A stretch of 47,778 bases of DNA from an uncultured Gemmatimonadota bacterium (lineage in GTDB: Bacteria; Gemmatimonadota; Gemmatimonadetes; Gemmatimonadales; Gemmatimonadaceae): assembly GCA_903900795.1 (NCBI GenBank), contig CAIUOO010000067.1, forward strand, positions 1-47,778, in the 5' to 3' direction. Positions within the stretch are counted from its first letter, which is position 1, and each line of letters opens with the position of its first letter. Positions 2,231 to 14,061 of this stretch are shown piece by piece. The notes under the pieces are model-generated. The model searched no databases. It had not been told where the DNA came from and was given only the letters and a program-made list of their open reading frames with translations. Made by a program: the position numbers and the translations under genes.

Positions 2231-3415
2231 ATGTCATCGATGCGGGAGGCGAAGGGCGGGCCCCCGGTTGCTTCGGCGGGTTTTGACGCGTTCGCGATCG
2301 CCGCGCCAGGTCTCGCGCCGCTGATTGCCGCAGAGTGCATCGCGCTGGGCATCACCCCCCGCGACGTCAGCCCGGCTGGTGTGTCGTTCAATGCCACCAC
2401 CGAGCAGCTGTTCACGGTGAACCTGTGGTCGCGATTAGCCAGCCGTGTGCTGGTGCGCTTGGCCGAGTTCGAGGCGCGCGATTTCGCGACGCTCGAAAAA
2501 ATGGCGGGGCGCGTACCGTGGCATCACGTGCTCTCGCCCGGGGCGGCCGTGCGGCTGCGGGTGACCTGTCGCAAGTCGCGGTTGTATCACTCGGACGCGG
2601 TGGCCGAGCGTGTAGCGCGCGGCATCACCAACAGTATCAAGGGCTCGCAGGCGCTTGGCCGAGCCCGGGATGACGAGGAGGACGACGACGGCAATACGCA
2701 GTTGATCGTGGTGCGCTTCGATCACGACCGATGCACGATCAGCGCCGACAGCTCGGGGGCACTGCTGCACCGACGCGGCTGGCGGCAGGCGATCGCGAAG
2801 GCACCGCTGCGCGAGACGCTGGCAGCGGCGATGCTCGCGGCCTGTGACTGGAACGGCGAGGTGCCGTTGGTAGATCCGTTCTGCGGATCGGGTACGATCG
2901 GTATCGAAGCGGCGCTGCGCGTGCGCCGCATGGCGCCGGGATTGGGGCGCGAGTTCGCGATGGAGCTGTGGCCGGGGGCCGACGCCCCCATGCACGCGCG
3001 GGTGCGCGCGGCGGCGCAGGCGGTGGCGCTGCCGTCGGTGGGCGCGCCGATCGTGATGCGTGACCGCGATGCGGGTGCGTGCAAGGCCGCCGTGGCCAAC
3101 GCGGAGCGGGCGGGCGTGCTGCAGGATCTGGTGATCCAGCAGGGACCGCTGTCGGATACGTCGCTGGAATCGATCGGCGCTGGCGGATTGGTGTTGACCA
3201 ACCCGCCGTACGGCCTGCGCATCAGCGATGGGGCCGATCTGCGATCACTGTATGCGCGGCTGGGCGATGTGGTGCGCGCCGGCGGTCGCGGATGGCAACT
3301 CGGCCTGCTGGTGCCCGATCGCGTGTTGGCGGCGCAGACGCGGCTCACGTTCGATGCGGTACTTCGCACCGCGAACGGTGGGCTACCGGTGGAAGTATTG
3401 GTGTCGCGCGCGTAG
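2231..3415 (+). CDS. THUMP-domain class I SAM-dependent RNA methyltransferase (RlmL/YpsC-like)
   Basis: PLVDPFCGSGTIGIEAAL and LTNPPYG motifs, typical of N6/N2 guanine/adenine methyltransferases. Confidence 0.9.
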   Translation: MSSMREAKGGPPVASAGFDAFAIAAPGLAPLIAAECIALGITPRDVSPAGVSFNATTEQLFTVNLWSRLASRVLVRLAEFEARDFATLEKMAGRVPWHHVLSPGAAVRLRVTCRKSRLYHSDAVAERVARGITNSIKGSQALGRARDDEEDDDGNTQLIVVRFDHDRCTISADSSGALLHRRGWRQAIAKAPLRETLAAAMLAACDWNGEVPLVDPFCGSGTIGIEAALRVRRMAPGLGREFAMELWPGADAPMHARVRAAAQAVALPSVGAPIVMRDRDAGACKAAVANAERAGVLQDLVIQQGPLSDTSLESIGAGGLVLTNPPYGLRISDGADLRSLYARLGDVVRAGGRGWQLGLLVPDRVLAAQTRLTFDAVLRTANGGLPVEVLVSRA

Positions 3416-3440
3416 ACGTGCACGCGACACCACCGGACGC

Positions 3441-3881
3441 TTACACGCGGAAGTGATCGGGGCGCCAGGTCTTGATCTGACTCTTGATCTCCTTGCCCGT
3501 GAGCGCCGGGTTCTTCACTACCATCTCGACCATCGCGGCCAGTTCAGCGTCGCTCGCGAAGCGCAGCGCGATATAGTGGCGCGGCGAGAAGGCGGCCTCG
3601 GCCCGCGCGGCCAGATCAGCCGGCAGCAGGCGGGCGTAGCGGAGCTGCTCTTCGAGGCGGATCAGGCGGTCCTGCGCGCGCAACGGAGACAGGCGTGACA
3701 CCGAGACCGCCCCGAAGAGCGCCAGCGCACCAACCAGCAGGTAATGCGTCTCGACGTCTCGGATCGTCATCGCCCGCCACGCACTCCAGATCAGGAAAAT
3801 CATCGAGAGCGGAGCGGCAAAGAAATGGAACATCGGCATGTACTTCGCGTGGTTGGCGAAATTCTGCGTCTTGTCAGACAT
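3441..3881 (-). CDS. DUF6526-like membrane-anchored protein
   Basis: MSDKTQNFANHAKYMPMFHFFAAPLSMIFLIWSAWR...RLIRLEEQLRYARLLP; two hydrophobic segments. Confidence 0.65.
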   Translation of the reverse strand: MSDKTQNFANHAKYMPMFHFFAAPLSMIFLIWSAWRAMTIRDVETHYLLVGALALFGAVSVSRLSPLRAQDRLIRLEEQLRYARLLPADLAARAEAAFSPRHYIALRFASDAELAAMVEMVVKNPALTGKEIKSQIKTWRPDHFRV

Positions 3882-3913
3882 GGTGGTGTGTCCTGTAAAA
3901 GAAAATCGGCCAG

Positions 3914-4480
3914 CTAGACGGTGTCGATCAGTGCGGCTGCTGTGGCGAAACGTGTTTCCCACGTGCCCTGTACAACGGTAACCGGTGCGGCGAATCGCGC
4001 CAACGTGTCGCGAAAGAGGGTCTGCACTTCGACTCGGTGTTTCTCGCGGTCGCGGATGCCGTCGGCGATCCACGGCACGTCGATCTCGAGCAGCAGATAG
4101 TGCGCGGCGCGGCGCGCCATTGCCGCCTGCTCGATGAAGTCGGGGCAGCGGCCGAAGTAGTGATGGCAGTATACGACGGTGCTGATCAGGTCGGTGTCCT
4201 GCAGCAGCAGCGTGTCACCGCGGGCGAGGGCGGCGGCCATGTGCGTGTCTTCCAGCGCCATCTGCCCCGTGGCGATGGGGCCATGATCGCGATCGTCGAG
4301 CGGCGCGCCCTTCGCGGCGGCATAGTCGCGTACGAACTCGGGCACGCACGTGATGCCGTAGCGCGAGGCCAGCTGTAGGCCGAGCGTGGTTTTCCCGACC
4401 GACTCCGAGCCGGTCAGGACGATGCGGGTCAGTTCGTGCGTTCGCTCGCGAGCTCTGTCCGCGTGGCCGATCGATGCCAT
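3914..4480 (-). CDS. AAA/NadR-type nucleoside kinase (start uncertain)
   Basis: Walker A GSESVGKTTL, EFVRDYAAAKG, LLQDTDLISTVVYCHHYFG; resembles the ribosylnicotinamide kinase domain of NadR; overlaps the downstream end of the PnuC-like gene. Confidence 0.8.
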   Translation of the reverse strand: MASIGHADRARERTHELTRIVLTGSESVGKTTLGLQLASRYGITCVPEFVRDYAAAKGAPLDDRDHGPIATGQMALEDTHMAAALARGDTLLLQDTDLISTVVYCHHYFGRCPDFIEQAAMARRAAHYLLLEIDVPWIADGIRDREKHRVEVQTLFRDTLARFAAPVTVVQGTWETRFATAAALIDTV

Positions 4481-5073
4481 TGCACGTAGCCAGTGATGGC
4501 GAGCACCAGAAACACGGCGTACAGAATCGCCGTGAGGGGGAGCTGCCGGTTGATGAACAGACCGATGTAGACCACGTCGACGGCGATCCAGAGCAGCCAG
4601 TTCTCGAGGAGTTTGCGCGTCATCATGTACTGCGCCACGAGGCTGATCGACACCAGCGCGGCGTCGAGCCACGGCAGCGCCGCCCCGGGCAAGCGGCGGG
4701 TGATCGTGGCCAGCATGACCCACGACACGAGCGCGATGGCGACCATCAGCAGCGCCGTGCGGCGTGGTGTGCGCGTCACGATCACCGCTTCATGGCCCGG
4801 TCCACCGCGCAGCCAATGCCACCATCCGTACAACGACAACACCAGATAGACCGCCTGCAGACCGGTGTCGGAGTAGAGACCGGTGCGGGCAAATACCACC
4901 GCGTAGAACCCGGCGTTGAGCACGCCGAGTGGCCAGCTCCAGATGTTCTCACGCGTGATGAGCCACACGTTGAGCACACCCGTGATGAAGCCGAAGAGCT
5001 CCGGGCAGGAGCTCCCATGCGCGACGAGCCACGCGCAGGGCTCGGACAGGAGATGGAACTCCATACTGGTCAT
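4429..5073 (-). CDS. PnuC/PnuT-family vitamin transporter
   Basis: NVWLITRENIWSWPLGVLNAGFYAVVF and YLVLSLYGWWHW motifs of the PnuC family; multi-TM. Confidence 0.92.
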   Translation of the reverse strand: MTSMEFHLLSEPCAWLVAHGSSCPELFGFITGVLNVWLITRENIWSWPLGVLNAGFYAVVFARTGLYSDTGLQAVYLVLSLYGWWHWLRGGPGHEAVIVTRTPRRTALLMVAIALVSWVMLATITRRLPGAALPWLDAALVSISLVAQYMMTRKLLENWLLWIAVDVVYIGLFINRQLPLTAILYAVFLVLAITGYVQWHRSATRTELASERTN

Positions 5074-5106
5074 AAGCCGGAAAGCTAATTAGGGTTCTCC
5101 GCACAT

Positions 5107-5189
5107 GACCGGGGTGCCGGCGCCGCCAGTGCGCGTTGGCTGAGAGAGTCCCGTAGAACCTGATCCGGCTCGTACCGGCGTAGGGAGTC
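5107..5189 (+). promoter_or_regulatory. TPP (THI-box) riboswitch
   Basis: Matches THI-box consensus blocks: CCGGGGTGCC ... GGCTGAGAGAGTCCCGTAGAACCTGATCCGG ... TACCGGCGTAGGGAGTC, followed 7 nt later by the ATG of the TonB receptor. Confidence 0.95.
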
Positions 5190-5195
5190 CAATCG

Positions 5196-7304
5196 ATGTA
5201 TCCGCACGCAATCGCGCGCCATTGGCGCACGCCGCGACTTGGTGTCGCCAAATTCAGCGCTGCCCTCAGCGCCTGCCTTCTGACTGTTGCCGCCGCCACG
5301 CTCGGCGCGCAGTCCCGCCCCGACAGTGCGACGACGGCCGCGAAGGCCGACTCCGTTCGCAACATCGAAGGCGTGTTGGTCCGCGCCATCCGTGCCAACG
5401 AACAGGCGCCGATCTCGCAAACCACCATCGGTCGCGCCGCCCTTACGCAGCGGCATTTTGGACAGGACGTGCCCATGCTGCTCATGAATGCGGCGCCTTC
5501 CATGACGTCGCACACCGAAACCGGCACCAACTGGGGCTACAGCTACCTGCGACTGCGCGGCATCGACCAGACGCGCATCAACATCACGCTCGACGGTGTA
5601 CCGCTGAACGACATGGAAGATCAGGTGCTGTACTTCGCCAACCTCGCCGACCTGATGTCGAACGTGCAGTCGGTGCAGGTGCAGCGCGGGGTGGGCACGA
5701 GCACCGCGGGCACGGCGTCATTCGCGGGTAGTGTGAACTTCGAGACGATGCCGGTGGCCCGCGCCGATGCCGGTGGCGATGTGCAGCTGCAGATGGGATC
5801 GTTCGGCGCCCAGCGCGTGAGCGCATCGTTCAATTCGGGGCTCACGGCGTCAAAGTTCGCGGTGTACGGCCGCGCCAGTGCGCTGCGCACCAACGGCTAC
5901 CGTGATCACAGTGGCGTCATGGGCCGTTCGGCGTTTGTGGGGGCCGGTTGGTTCGGCGCGCGCGACGTGCTGAAGCTGACCACGCTGGTGGGACTGCTGG
6001 CCGACACGCTTTCGTACACGGGCGCCACGCTCGAAGAGTTACGGGCGAATCGCCGCTTCAATCCGCTGCAGCCAGACGAGCGCGATAAGTTCGGACAGCA
6101 GATGGTGTCGCTGGCCTACACACGCGCCCTGCAGAACGGCGGGTCGGCAAGCACCACGGTGTACCGCAACTCGGCCAGCGGCAACTACGACTACATCGCG
6201 TTGCCCGATCGCTATCGCTTTAACCTGGCGCATACGTGGTACGGCATAACGAGTGCGTACAACGTGGAGCGCGGCGCGCTACGCGTGAATACCGGCATCA
6301 ATGCCAACACGTACCAGCGCGCGCACCGTGGCTACTTGCAGCCGTCCACTACGTTGTATGACAATACCGGCCACAAGCAGGATGCCAGCGCCTTCGCCAA
6401 GCTGTCGCTCGACGCCGGCAAGGCCCGCTGGTTTGCCGACTTGCAGGGACGCTACGCCAAGTTCCGCTACGAGCCCGACGCCAACGCCGGCATAGACGAG
6501 CGCAGCATTGATTGGCTGTTCTTCAACCCGAAAGCCGGTGTCACGTACCAGCTGGCTACGGGTGTCGCGTCGTACGCGTCGTACGGCATCACGAGCCGCG
6601 AGCCGGCGCGCAATGATCTGTTTGCCGGCGATGATGACCTGAACAGCGGCAACGTGGCCGACTACGGCGATTTCACGCGGGTGAAACCGGAGTCGGTGCG
6701 CGACGCCGAGTTGGGTATCACGTGGTCGCGGGCCACGATGGAGCTGTCGGCGAATCTGTACAGCATGGATTTCCGCAACGACATCGCGCGCATCGGCGCG
6801 CCCACGGCGTCGGGATCGATTCTGCGACGGAACGTGGGCAACAGTTATCGCCGTGGTATCGAAGTCGATGCGGCCTATCGCGGGATCTCGCGCGTGGTGC
6901 TGGCGGGCAACGCCACCTGGAGCCAGAACCGTATCGCGCAGTTCACCGATTCGTCGCGCGGCACGCCGGTGGTGCGACGTAACGTCGCGCCGATGCTCAC
7001 GCCGGCGTTCATCTCGTCGCATCGTATTGAAGTGTCGCCCACGCAGCGCTTCATGGTGAGCGTGGAAGGGCGGTATCAGTCGGCGGCGTATCTCGATAAC
7101 ACCAGCAGTGCGGATCGCGTGCTACCCGACTACTACACACTCGATGCGTCGGCGCGGGCGACGCTGGGCCGCTATGCGCTCACGGTGCGTGGGGTGAATC
7201 TGGGGGACACGCAGAAGTTTGCCAGCGGTGCGGTGTCGGGGACGGTGCGCTACTTCGTGCTGCCGGCGCGGGCGGTGTTTGCGACGGTGAGCGCGGAGTT
7301 CTGA
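5196..7304 (+). CDS. TonB-dependent outer-membrane receptor (probable thiamine or related vitamin uptake)
   Basis: Signal peptide, plug domain (YLRLRGIDQTRINITLDGVPLNDMEDQ), beta-barrel C-terminus ending in F; directly behind a TPP riboswitch. Confidence 0.9.
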   Translation: MYPHAIARHWRTPRLGVAKFSAALSACLLTVAAATLGAQSRPDSATTAAKADSVRNIEGVLVRAIRANEQAPISQTTIGRAALTQRHFGQDVPMLLMNAAPSMTSHTETGTNWGYSYLRLRGIDQTRINITLDGVPLNDMEDQVLYFANLADLMSNVQSVQVQRGVGTSTAGTASFAGSVNFETMPVARADAGGDVQLQMGSFGAQRVSASFNSGLTASKFAVYGRASALRTNGYRDHSGVMGRSAFVGAGWFGARDVLKLTTLVGLLADTLSYTGATLEELRANRRFNPLQPDERDKFGQQMVSLAYTRALQNGGSASTTVYRNSASGNYDYIALPDRYRFNLAHTWYGITSAYNVERGALRVNTGINANTYQRAHRGYLQPSTTLYDNTGHKQDASAFAKLSLDAGKARWFADLQGRYAKFRYEPDANAGIDERSIDWLFFNPKAGVTYQLATGVASYASYGITSREPARNDLFAGDDDLNSGNVADYGDFTRVKPESVRDAELGITWSRATMELSANLYSMDFRNDIARIGAPTASGSILRRNVGNSYRRGIEVDAAYRGISRVVLAGNATWSQNRIAQFTDSSRGTPVVRRNVAPMLTPAFISSHRIEVSPTQRFMVSVEGRYQSAAYLDNTSSADRVLPDYYTLDASARATLGRYALTVRGVNLGDTQKFASGAVSGTVRYFVLPARAVFATVSAEF

Positions 7305-8988: not shown

Positions 8989-9064
8989 GGGCGTTGCCCG
9001 ATCGATCTGATCGATCTACCTTTTGTACAACGATATGTCGATCGATACGCAAACTGGGGGACGA

Positions 9065-9271
9065 ATGGACGTGGTCACGATTTCGCCCAAGTATCAGGTG
9101 GTGATTCCGCGGAGCGTTCGCGAGCGGCTCCAGCTGGAACCTGGGCAGAAAGTTCAGGCCATCGTGTACGGCGATCGCGTCGAGCTGATCCCATTGCGGA
9201 CCGCGCGGAGTCTGCGCGGATTCGTGCGCGGGATTGATAGCCGTGTCGACCGTGACGCTGATCGCGAGTAG
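9065..9271 (+). CDS. AbrB/MazE/SpoVT-fold antitoxin (VapB-like)
   Basis: VVTISPKYQVVIPRSVRERLQLEPGQKVQAIVYGDRVELIPL; precedes a PIN-domain gene. Confidence 0.88.
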   Translation: MDVVTISPKYQVVIPRSVRERLQLEPGQKVQAIVYGDRVELIPLRTARSLRGFVRGIDSRVDRDADRE

Positions 9272-9280
9272 GGTTGCGAC

Positions 9281-9676
9281 TTGGTGACCCGTGCCACGTT
9301 GAATGTGGTCGACTCGTCGGCGTGGCTCGCCTATTTCGCCGACACGGCGAACGCCGCCGTGTTCGCCGCGGCCATCGAGGACGAGCGGCGGCTCGTGACG
9401 CCGGCGATCTGCCTGCTGGAAGTCTTCAAGGTGATCGCGCGCCAGCGCGGAGAGAGCGACGCACTGCAGGCGATCGCGGTGATGCAGCAGGGGCGTGTGG
9501 TCGATCTCGACGCGACGCTGGCGCTACGAGCGGCATCGCTGGGGCTCGAGCACAAGCTGCCGCTGGCCGACAGCATCGTGTACGCGACCGCGCGCGAACT
9601 TGGTGCGACGGTGTGGACGCAGGACGCCGACTTCGAGGGGCTTCGGGATGTCGAGTACGTCCCGGCGCCTCGCTAA
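9281..9676 (+). CDS. PIN-domain toxin (VapC-like); TTG start, or GTG at 9284
   Basis: NVVDSSAWLAYFADT...LPLADSIVYATAR...VWTQDADFEGL, with conserved PIN acidic residues. Confidence 0.88.
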   Translation: MVTRATLNVVDSSAWLAYFADTANAAVFAAAIEDERRLVTPAICLLEVFKVIARQRGESDALQAIAVMQQGRVVDLDATLALRAASLGLEHKLPLADSIVYATARELGATVWTQDADFEGLRDVEYVPAPR

Positions 9677-11280: not shown

Positions 11281-14061
11281 ATGACCGCTGCCATCACGAG
11301 CGTTTTCAACGACGGCATTTTTGCCGAACAATTCGAGCGTTATCGTCACGACCCCGCCAGTGTGGACGAGACGTGGCGCCAGTATTTCCGCATCGCCGAG
11401 TCGCTGTTCGGACCGGGGGCGGCGACGCCATCGTCGGCCCCAGCGGGTGGCGCCACCTACGACGTCGCCTTCCTCCGGAAAGTGGCGGCGGCCGCCTCGC
11501 TGCAGCAGGCTATCCGCAGCTACGGGCACTACGCGGTGCAGCTCGATCCCCTCGGCACGCCGCCTCCCGGCGCTGAGGATCTGAGCCCGGCGTACTGGGG
11601 GCTCACCGAGGCCGATCTGCAGGCGATTCCCGGCGAGGCCCTTGGCGACGCGCGCTTTGCCACCGCCGCTGACGCCATCGCGCGCAAGCGGCAGGTGTAT
11701 GCGGGGCGCATCGGCTGGGAGGTGTGGCATCTCGAAGTCGACGAAGAGCGCGACTGGTTTCAGCGCGCGTTCCGCGATGGTGTGCTCACGCGAGATCTCA
11801 CCCCCGACGAAAAGAAGGACACGCTGCGTCGCCTCAATCAGGTGGACGGGCTTGAGCGCTTCATCGGTCGGGCGTATCAGGGGTATAAGCGCTTCTCGGT
11901 GGAAGGCACCGACACGCTGATTCCGATGCTCGACGAAGTGATTCGCGAGTCGGGACGCTCGGGTGCGCGCGAGATCGTGATCGGCATGGCGCATCGCGGT
12001 CGGCTGAACGTGCTCACGAACGTGATGGGCAAGCCATTCGAAAGTCTGTTCGCCGAGTTCGAAGGTCGTCACGATCACGTCGACGGCAACGCGACGGGCG
12101 ACGTGAAGTACCACATGGGCTTCGTCGGCTCACGCGACGTCGACGGCAAGATGGTGACGCTGCGGCTGGCGCCCAACCCGTCGCATCTCGAAGTGGTGAA
12201 CCCGGTCGTCGAAGGCATGGTACGCGCGTTGCAGCGCGTTCCGGGCCGGTTAGCCGAGCGCGATGAACTCGCGGTGGTGCCGGTGGCCATTCACGGCGAC
12301 GCGGCGTTCCCGGGCGAGGGCATCGTGGCCGAAACGCTCAACATCTCGCACCTGAACGCGTATCGCACCGGCGGCACGATCCACATCATCGTGAACAATC
12401 AGGTCGGTTTCACCACCGACCCGACCGATGCCCGCTCCACCCACTACGCGTCGGATCTCGCGAAGGGCTTCGAGATGCCGGTGTTCCACGTGAACGCCGA
12501 CGACGCGCAGGCCTGCCTCACGGCGGTGCGGGTGGCGTGCGCGTATCGCGCCACGTTCAAGAAGGACGTGTTGATCGACCTCGTGGGCTATCGTCGTCAC
12601 GGGCACAACGAAGGTGATGAGCCGATGTACACGCAGCCCACGCGGTACGCGCAGATCCGCAAGCACCCCACGGTGCCGCAGGTGTGGGCCAGCCGCCTGG
12701 TGGCCGAGGGTGTCGTCACCGAGGCGGAAGCGGCCGAAGTCGAGCAGGCGGTCTCGCTGCATTATGCCGAGATTCATGCGCGCTTCAAGCAGTCATTGCT
12801 GAGCAGCGAGCAGCACGCGCCGTGGCCGGCCGTACCGGCGTCGGCGCAGACGGCCGTGGTCACCAGCGTGGCGGTCGAGCGGTTGCAGGAGGTGAACGAA
12901 GCGCTGCTCACCTGGCCGTCCGATCACAAGCCGAATCCGCGGTTGGCCAAGCAGCTCGAGCGTCGTCGCGAGACGATGGGTGAGCAGGGTGGTATCGAGT
13001 GGGGACACGCCGAAGCGTTGGCGTTCGGTACGCTGCTCCTCGACGGCATGTCGGTGCGCATCACGGGTCAGGACGCCGAGCGCGGCACCTTCTCGCATCG
13101 TCATGCGGTGCTCAGCGACAGCGAGAACGGCCGCAAGTACGCGCCGCTTGCCAACCTGCCCGGAGCCAAGGGCGTGTTCGAGATCTTCAACTCGGCGCTC
13201 TCCGAGACCGCCGTGCTGGCGTTCGAATACGGCTTCAGTACCGTTGCCACCGACGCGCTTACGGTGTGGGAAGCGCAGTTCGGTGACTTCGTGAACGTGG
13301 CGCAGCCGATCATCGACCAGTTCATCGTGGCCGACCGCGCCAAGTGGGGACAGGACAGCGGCGTGGTGATGCTGCTGCCGCACGGCTATGAGGGACAAGG
13401 CCCGGAGCATTCGAGCGCGCGTCTCGAGCGGTTCCTGCAGATGTGTGCCGAAGGCAACATGACCGTCGCCTACTGCAGTACGCCAGCACAGTACTTCCAC
13501 CTGTTGCGTCGGCAGGCGCTGCGGACATCGCGTCGTCCGCTCATCTGCATGCAGCCGAAGTCGCTGCTGCGTTTGCCGCAGGCGGCGTCGAAGCTCGACG
13601 ACTTGTCGCAGGGTGGATTTCAGTCGGTGATCGACGATCCCATCGCGTCGCAGCATCGTGACGATGTGCGTCGCATCGTGTTCTGCACGGGCAAGCTGTA
13701 TTACGACATGTCGCTGGCGGCGACGCGCAATCCGCACGTGGCGCTGGTGCGCGTCGAACAGCTGTATCCGTGGCCGCACGAGGAAATCGTGCGCATCATG
13801 GACCTGTATCCCTCGATCGAACAGGTCGTATGGGCGCAGGAAGAGCCGAAGAATCAGGGTGCGTGGACCTACGTGCAGCCGCGCTTGCGGGCGTCGGCCG
13901 GCGCGTCGGTGGGTGTGCGCTACGTGGGCCGTCCGGAGCGCGCGAGTCCGGCGGAAGGGTACATGGATGCGCATCAGGCCGAGCAGGCCCGAATCATTGC
14001 GATGATCATGGATACCGGCGAAGTGGCCGTGGAGCGCGCCACGATGACGGTGGGGCAGTGA
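11281..14061 (+). CDS. sucA: 2-oxoglutarate dehydrogenase E1 component
   Basis: EQFERYRHDPASVDETWRQYF, IGMAHRGRLNVL, HMGFVGSRDVDGK, LPHGYEGQGPEHSSARLERFLQ motifs. Confidence 0.96.
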   Translation: MTAAITSVFNDGIFAEQFERYRHDPASVDETWRQYFRIAESLFGPGAATPSSAPAGGATYDVAFLRKVAAAASLQQAIRSYGHYAVQLDPLGTPPPGAEDLSPAYWGLTEADLQAIPGEALGDARFATAADAIARKRQVYAGRIGWEVWHLEVDEERDWFQRAFRDGVLTRDLTPDEKKDTLRRLNQVDGLERFIGRAYQGYKRFSVEGTDTLIPMLDEVIRESGRSGAREIVIGMAHRGRLNVLTNVMGKPFESLFAEFEGRHDHVDGNATGDVKYHMGFVGSRDVDGKMVTLRLAPNPSHLEVVNPVVEGMVRALQRVPGRLAERDELAVVPVAIHGDAAFPGEGIVAETLNISHLNAYRTGGTIHIIVNNQVGFTTDPTDARSTHYASDLAKGFEMPVFHVNADDAQACLTAVRVACAYRATFKKDVLIDLVGYRRHGHNEGDEPMYTQPTRYAQIRKHPTVPQVWASRLVAEGVVTEAEAAEVEQAVSLHYAEIHARFKQSLLSSEQHAPWPAVPASAQTAVVTSVAVERLQEVNEALLTWPSDHKPNPRLAKQLERRRETMGEQGGIEWGHAEALAFGTLLLDGMSVRITGQDAERGTFSHRHAVLSDSENGRKYAPLANLPGAKGVFEIFNSALSETAVLAFEYGFSTVATDALTVWEAQFGDFVNVAQPIIDQFIVADRAKWGQDSGVVMLLPHGYEGQGPEHSSARLERFLQMCAEGNMTVAYCSTPAQYFHLLRRQALRTSRRPLICMQPKSLLRLPQAASKLDDLSQGGFQSVIDDPIASQHRDDVRRIVFCTGKLYYDMSLAATRNPHVALVRVEQLYPWPHEEIVRIMDLYPSIEQVVWAQEEPKNQGAWTYVQPRLRASAGASVGVRYVGRPERASPAEGYMDAHQAEQARIIAMIMDTGEVAVERATMTVGQ

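Follow-up and report, generated by a model that had tools for sequence, protein, structure and literature searches.

A TPP riboswitch-controlled receptor beside a PnuC-family transporter and a NadR-like kinase: a predicted thiamine uptake and salvage locus in Gemmatimonadota

Described systems for vitamin uptake and trapping

In Bacteroides, the carrier PnuT, a TonB receptor and Tnr3 are encoded under TPP riboswitches, with growth phenotypes (PMC5613172). The B. thetaiotaomicron set, OMthi/pnuT/tnr3, corresponds to BT2390 and BT2396-2397 (PMC5613172). The locus analyzed here lies in a 47,778-nucleotide stretch of DNA from an uncultured Gemmatimonadota bacterium, hereafter the window. It shares with the Bacteroidetes set a TPP riboswitch, a TonB receptor, a PnuC-family inner-membrane carrier and a predicted thiamine-phosphorylating enzyme. 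However, it lacks tnr3, which is of the TPK type, and has a NadR-like AAA_28 kinase together with ThiL instead; moreover, the receptor and the pnuT-kinase pair are divergent. An earlier note on this DNA had invoked PnuT as a precedent, which is indeed documented in Bacteroides; the enzyme used there is of the pyrophosphokinase type, which this genome lacks (PMC5613172).

The PnuC and NadR system for nicotinamide riboside (NR) has a homologous carrier and kinase, and likewise traps its substrate by phosphorylation after transport. The window locus differs from it in that the kinase has no NMNAT domain, a TPP riboswitch is found rather than NAD control, nadA is kept in the genome, and the proteins occupy separate tree branches. 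E. coli ThiK (YcfN) resembles the window kinase in the predicted reaction, from thiamine to thiamine monophosphate (ThMP), and in its partner ThiL, but belongs to an unrelated protein family. The plasmid clusters of Novosphingobium and Acinetobacter also bring together a TonB receptor, PnuC and a small-molecule kinase; unlike in the window, the kinase is of the APH family (PF01636) and no TPP riboswitch scores above the cut-off. We observed such a set of TonB receptor, APH-family kinase and PnuC in L204 (1050-5115), L206 (531-4558) and L213 (1064-5078), which derive from Novosphingobium, Acinetobacter lwoffii and a 'phage' contig. These clusters possibly follow the same uptake-and-trap logic with another kinase family.

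The specificity of Pnu transporters is predictable from the riboswitch class (PMC7749635). Palauibacterales are reported to have thiamine synthesis far more often than Gemmatimonadales and Longimicrobiales do, and no salvage kinase was named in that work (PMC10469786). Among the open-access papers searched, none was found that connects a NadR-like enzyme and PnuC/PnuT with a thiamine kinase; given this scope, priority is uncertain.

Layout of the locus and its riboswitch

The four elements proposed in the earlier note, a TPP riboswitch, a divergent TonB receptor, a PnuC and a NadR-like kinase, are all present, as judged by Rfam and Pfam matches. The TPP aptamer occupies positions 5100-5203 of the + strand and matches the RF00059 covariance model with 61.8 bits, above the gathering threshold of 54.3 (E 7.7e-10). 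It is the sole Rfam match above gathering in the window, and no second TPP riboswitch was found elsewhere in the draft genome. The aptamer faces a TonB-dependent receptor (5196-7304, +), which contains the PF00593 barrel and PF07715 plug domains and is a predicted outer-membrane thiamine receptor. Divergent from both, on the - strand, are a PnuC-family transporter (4429-5073; PF04973, E 2.1e-56), predicted to be a PnuT-type thiamine carrier, and a NadR-like AAA_28 kinase (3914-4480; PF13521, E 2.3e-33), a predicted ThMP-forming thiamine kinase. ATG 4480, a codon also kept in the sister genome G074, is the probable start of the kinase, which therefore overlaps the end of pnuC (4429). No riboswitch was matched on the - strand of the window, which carries pnuC. 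Thus, within the window the receptor is the riboswitch target, and the pnuC-kinase pair is outside its control.

The aptamer model covers the receptor start codon, ATG 5196, in its final 8 bases. The aptamer end, including this codon, reads GTAGGGAGTCCAATCGATG, in which GGGAG (5183-5187, +) forms part of the conserved 3' strand and, located 8 nt before the ATG, is also the probable Shine-Dalgarno sequence. Among the congeners, the GTAGGGAGTC...ATG layout is kept, and the start codon is placed 6-9 nt ahead of the end of the aptamer model. This arrangement suggests that TPP binding would directly occlude the ribosome-binding site of the receptor. In the Acidobacteriota relatives, the leader is mostly longer than in the window. 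When 5098-5215 was folded as a single RNA sequence, the aptamer structure did not emerge, and shuffled sequences scored better (z +2.2). Since the aptamer is GC-rich and ligand-stabilized, such folding is uninformative, and the covariance model constitutes the evidence.

As for the neighboring genes, a DUF6526 protein is encoded after the kinase (3441-3899, -), and G074 has the same neighbor (L082, 9038-9478). Inspection by eye indicated a short ORF pair resembling an AbrB-type antitoxin and a PIN toxin (9023-9676, +) and a 2-oxoglutarate dehydrogenase E1 (11281-14061, +). The latter enzyme is TPP-dependent, and its proximity to the receptor gene, about 4 kb away, is probably a coincidence.

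Regulated operons and the kinase clade in relatives

In contrast to the window, where pnuC and the riboswitch are on opposite strands, homologous operons place them on the same strand. G016 and G113, whose loci are nearly identical, encode the TPP riboswitch, TonB receptor, PnuC and kinase in this order on a single strand; in the L095 operon, these elements occupy 2523-2631, 2627-4822, 4836-5375 and 5421-5921. A search of genome contigs for relatives returned 80 loci, and about 20 further loci, mostly with Acidobacteriota titles, carry the riboswitch ahead of the receptor, PnuC and kinase, all in the same orientation. The operon count is 22 loci, including L193, which is G113 again, and two riboswitches that score slightly below gathering. 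In the Acidobacteriota-type loci, the gap between PnuC and the kinase is within about 40 bases. Thus, judging from gene order, the kinase is inside a TPP-regulated operon in G016, G113 and the Acidobacteriota-type loci. A Persicobacter (Bacteroidota) plasmid shows another order: PnuC, kinase, TPP riboswitch and TonB receptor.

The link between riboswitch and receptor persists where these genes are dispersed. In 20 genomes chosen because the riboswitch is away from the kinase and PnuC, it still precedes a homolog of the window receptor in every case. Altogether, 38 of the 39 riboswitches examined in relatives have a receptor homolog downstream, and the 39th (L089) points toward a thiE region. 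In L087 (G068), pnuC is beside the riboswitch and receptor, and the kinase is about 14 kb off. The congeners G019, G055, G068 and G079 carry a second TPP riboswitch and ThiE, both absent from the window genome, which suggests precursor salvage in this part of the genus.

The AlphaFold model of the kinase has a pLDDT of 94. Its top fold match is the NadR kinase domain (8x7f, TM 0.84), followed by thymidylate kinases; together with the PF13521 match, this identifies the P-loop kinase domain of the RNK type that is expected of NadR. P-loop kinases of the NadR kinase and thymidylate kinase class are known to transfer one phosphate. However, the protein consists of the kinase part only (176-188 aa), with no N-terminal NMNAT domain, and its score against the NadR model TIGR01526, 76.6 bits, is below the NCBIfam cut-off of 341. 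In NCBIfam it gave no match to the ThiK model (TIGR02721), its domain match being AAA_28, and it has no TPK catalytic domain (PF04263). The kinase is predicted to work like ThiK, yet it belongs to a different family. Its closest database relatives share 97-82% identity with it and come from MAGs that bear the names Gemmatimonadetes or Gemmatimonas, which places the window in Gemmatimonadaceae, probably close to Gemmatimonas.

In the kinase tree, the clade of thiamine-linked sequences has 62 members (support 97/92) and leaves out the E. coli NadR, phage, Nostoc and Leptospira kinases, some of these reference branches being long; the window kinase did not branch with the NR-associated kinases. 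The thiamine-linked and NR-type groups also differ in residues, among them DTDL-ST versus DTD[FV]-TT and, at the end of the PW..D..R motif, RD versus RS. Three AAA_28 kinases fall outside the thiamine-linked clade, namely G123b (L116), G135 (L120) and that of Tritonibacter mobilis (L203). The Tritonibacter locus, which also lacks a TPP riboswitch, was rejected as a member.

The transporter has the PnuC fold, and firm clustering with PnuC would have spoken against a PnuT-like assignment. In the PnuC tree, the five NR-type references form a clade of their own (100/92) that excludes the window protein, and the tree contains no verified PnuT. Several reference branches are long, and both trees were relied on only for the separation from the NR type. 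A residue difference, W..W...D versus N, was considered as a PnuC/PnuT marker and discarded, as D also occurs in the PnuCs of Nostoc and Leptospira. These observations are consistent with a PnuT-type thiamine carrier. On the other hand, the nearest solved relatives of both the kinase and the carrier are NR proteins (NadR and PnuC), which counts against the thiamine reading.

Thiamine gene content, alternative substrates and predicted pathway

The panel, a fixed set of 150 Gemmatimonadota genomes, was searched for the kinase, TPP riboswitch, PnuC, ThiL, TPK, ThiC, ThiE, ThiK and NadA families. ThiC and ThiE are both absent from 31 genomes, 30 of which have PnuC and the kinase, as compared to 13 of the remaining 119. 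The association has a Fisher p of about 3e-20, which overstates independence, as shared ancestry is uncorrected. Since TenI-like paralogs were scored as ThiE, the true number of genomes without ThiE would, if anything, be higher. The pattern is seen in 14 genera and extends to a second family (G041 and G109). The lone exception, G124 (91% complete), has no ThiC, ThiE, kinase or PnuC. In the opposite direction, G127, G123 and G119 carry the kinase with both ThiC and ThiE present and no TPP link, which counts against the thiamine reading.

The genome check proposed earlier included thiE and thiL. ThiE was not found in the window genome, and ThiC was found neither there nor in any tested member of its genus. 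G039 and G074, congeners with complete single-contig genomes, agree with the window genome in this, and assembly gaps are therefore not the cause. ThiL is present in all 150 panel genomes, and above the cut-off in each of the 31 that lack ThiC and ThiE. By contrast, neither TPK nor, above the cut-off, ThiK was detected in any of the 150 genomes, the E. coli control for ThiK being positive. Outside the panel, 26 genomes with related kinases all have ThiL (23 above the cut-off), and none has TPK. With ThiL but no ThiE, TPK or ThiK, making TPP from thiamine requires another ThMP-forming enzyme, and the kinase is the candidate. Judging from its genes, the window organism, a soil/lake bacterium, cannot make vitamin B1 and seemingly imports it.

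The earlier note had left two options, a PnuT-like transporter with a non-orthologous AAA/NadR thiamine kinase, or two vitamins sharing the locus. In the latter case, thiamine would enter by the TPP-controlled receptor, and NR would be taken up by PnuC and the NadR-like kinase. The homology of these proteins to PnuC and the NadR kinase, and the control of the receptor alone by the window riboswitch, fit such a division. However, 53 of the 54 panel genomes of the family, the window genome among them, retain nadA for de novo NAD synthesis, so NR is unneeded there and the option is disfavored; within this family, kinase presence tracks ThiC/ThiE loss and not NadA loss. The sister family speaks for NR, as all six of its PnuC-bearing genomes (G041, G107, G109, G119, G121 and G133) lack nadA and may be NR users or NAD auxotrophs. 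Nevertheless, the TPP-controlled operons of G016/G113 and Acidobacteriota include the kinase, the window kinase lacks the NMNAT domain, and ThiL would be left with no thiamine kinase supplying it. Taken together, a two-vitamin locus appears improbable.

It is still less probable that HMP or hydroxyethylthiazole, precursors of thiamine, rather than thiamine itself is the kinase substrate. Four members of the genus retain ThiE, some of them next to the second TPP riboswitch, which hints at precursor salvage in them, but ThiC and ThiE for joining precursors are missing from 31 genomes, including the window genome, G039 and G074, and the kinase is nonetheless present in 30 of these 31. That the kinase yields TPP directly, in the manner of a pyrophosphokinase and bypassing ThiL, is scarcely credible: tnr3 (a thiamine pyrophosphorylase per PMC5613172) holds the equivalent position in the Bacteroides operon, but ThiL is retained in every genome, ThiE-less ones included, and in fold the kinase is closest to the NadR kinase and thymidylate kinase domains of the single-phosphate P-loop class.

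The first option, a PnuT-like carrier with a NadR-like thiamine kinase, is supported by the co-occurrence with ThiC/ThiE loss, the absence of TPK and ThiK, the universal ThiL and the TPP operons elsewhere, from which we infer the kinase activity. The locus is very likely a TPP-controlled receptor, a PnuT-type carrier and a NadR-fold thiamine kinase feeding ThiL. At low TPP, the riboswitch would leave the ribosome-binding site of the receptor free, and the TonB receptor would carry thiamine over the outer membrane. Thiamine would then diffuse through the inner membrane via the PnuT-type carrier and be trapped as ThMP, not TPP, by the kinase, and ThiL, encoded elsewhere, would convert ThMP to TPP. 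At high TPP, the aptamer would fold and hide the Shine-Dalgarno sequence.

More generally, it is likely that this AAA_28/NadR branch, labeled NAD-related throughout the databases, comprises widespread thiamine kinases that share no homology with ThiK. Working with PnuT and TPP-controlled TonB receptors in Gemmatimonadota, Acidobacteriota and some Bacteroidota, they would close ThiL-dependent salvage in the absence of both TPK and ThiK. If so, the branch would provide the thiamine kinase that whole B1-auxotroph lineages in at least two phyla had seemed to lack, and would correct a common misannotation, in which PnuC with a NadR-like kinase is read as NAD salvage. It would also mean that a Pnu carrier and its trapping kinase switched vitamin together. 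Predictions of B1 auxotrophy in abundant soil and lake bacteria hinge on this thiamine-kinase step.
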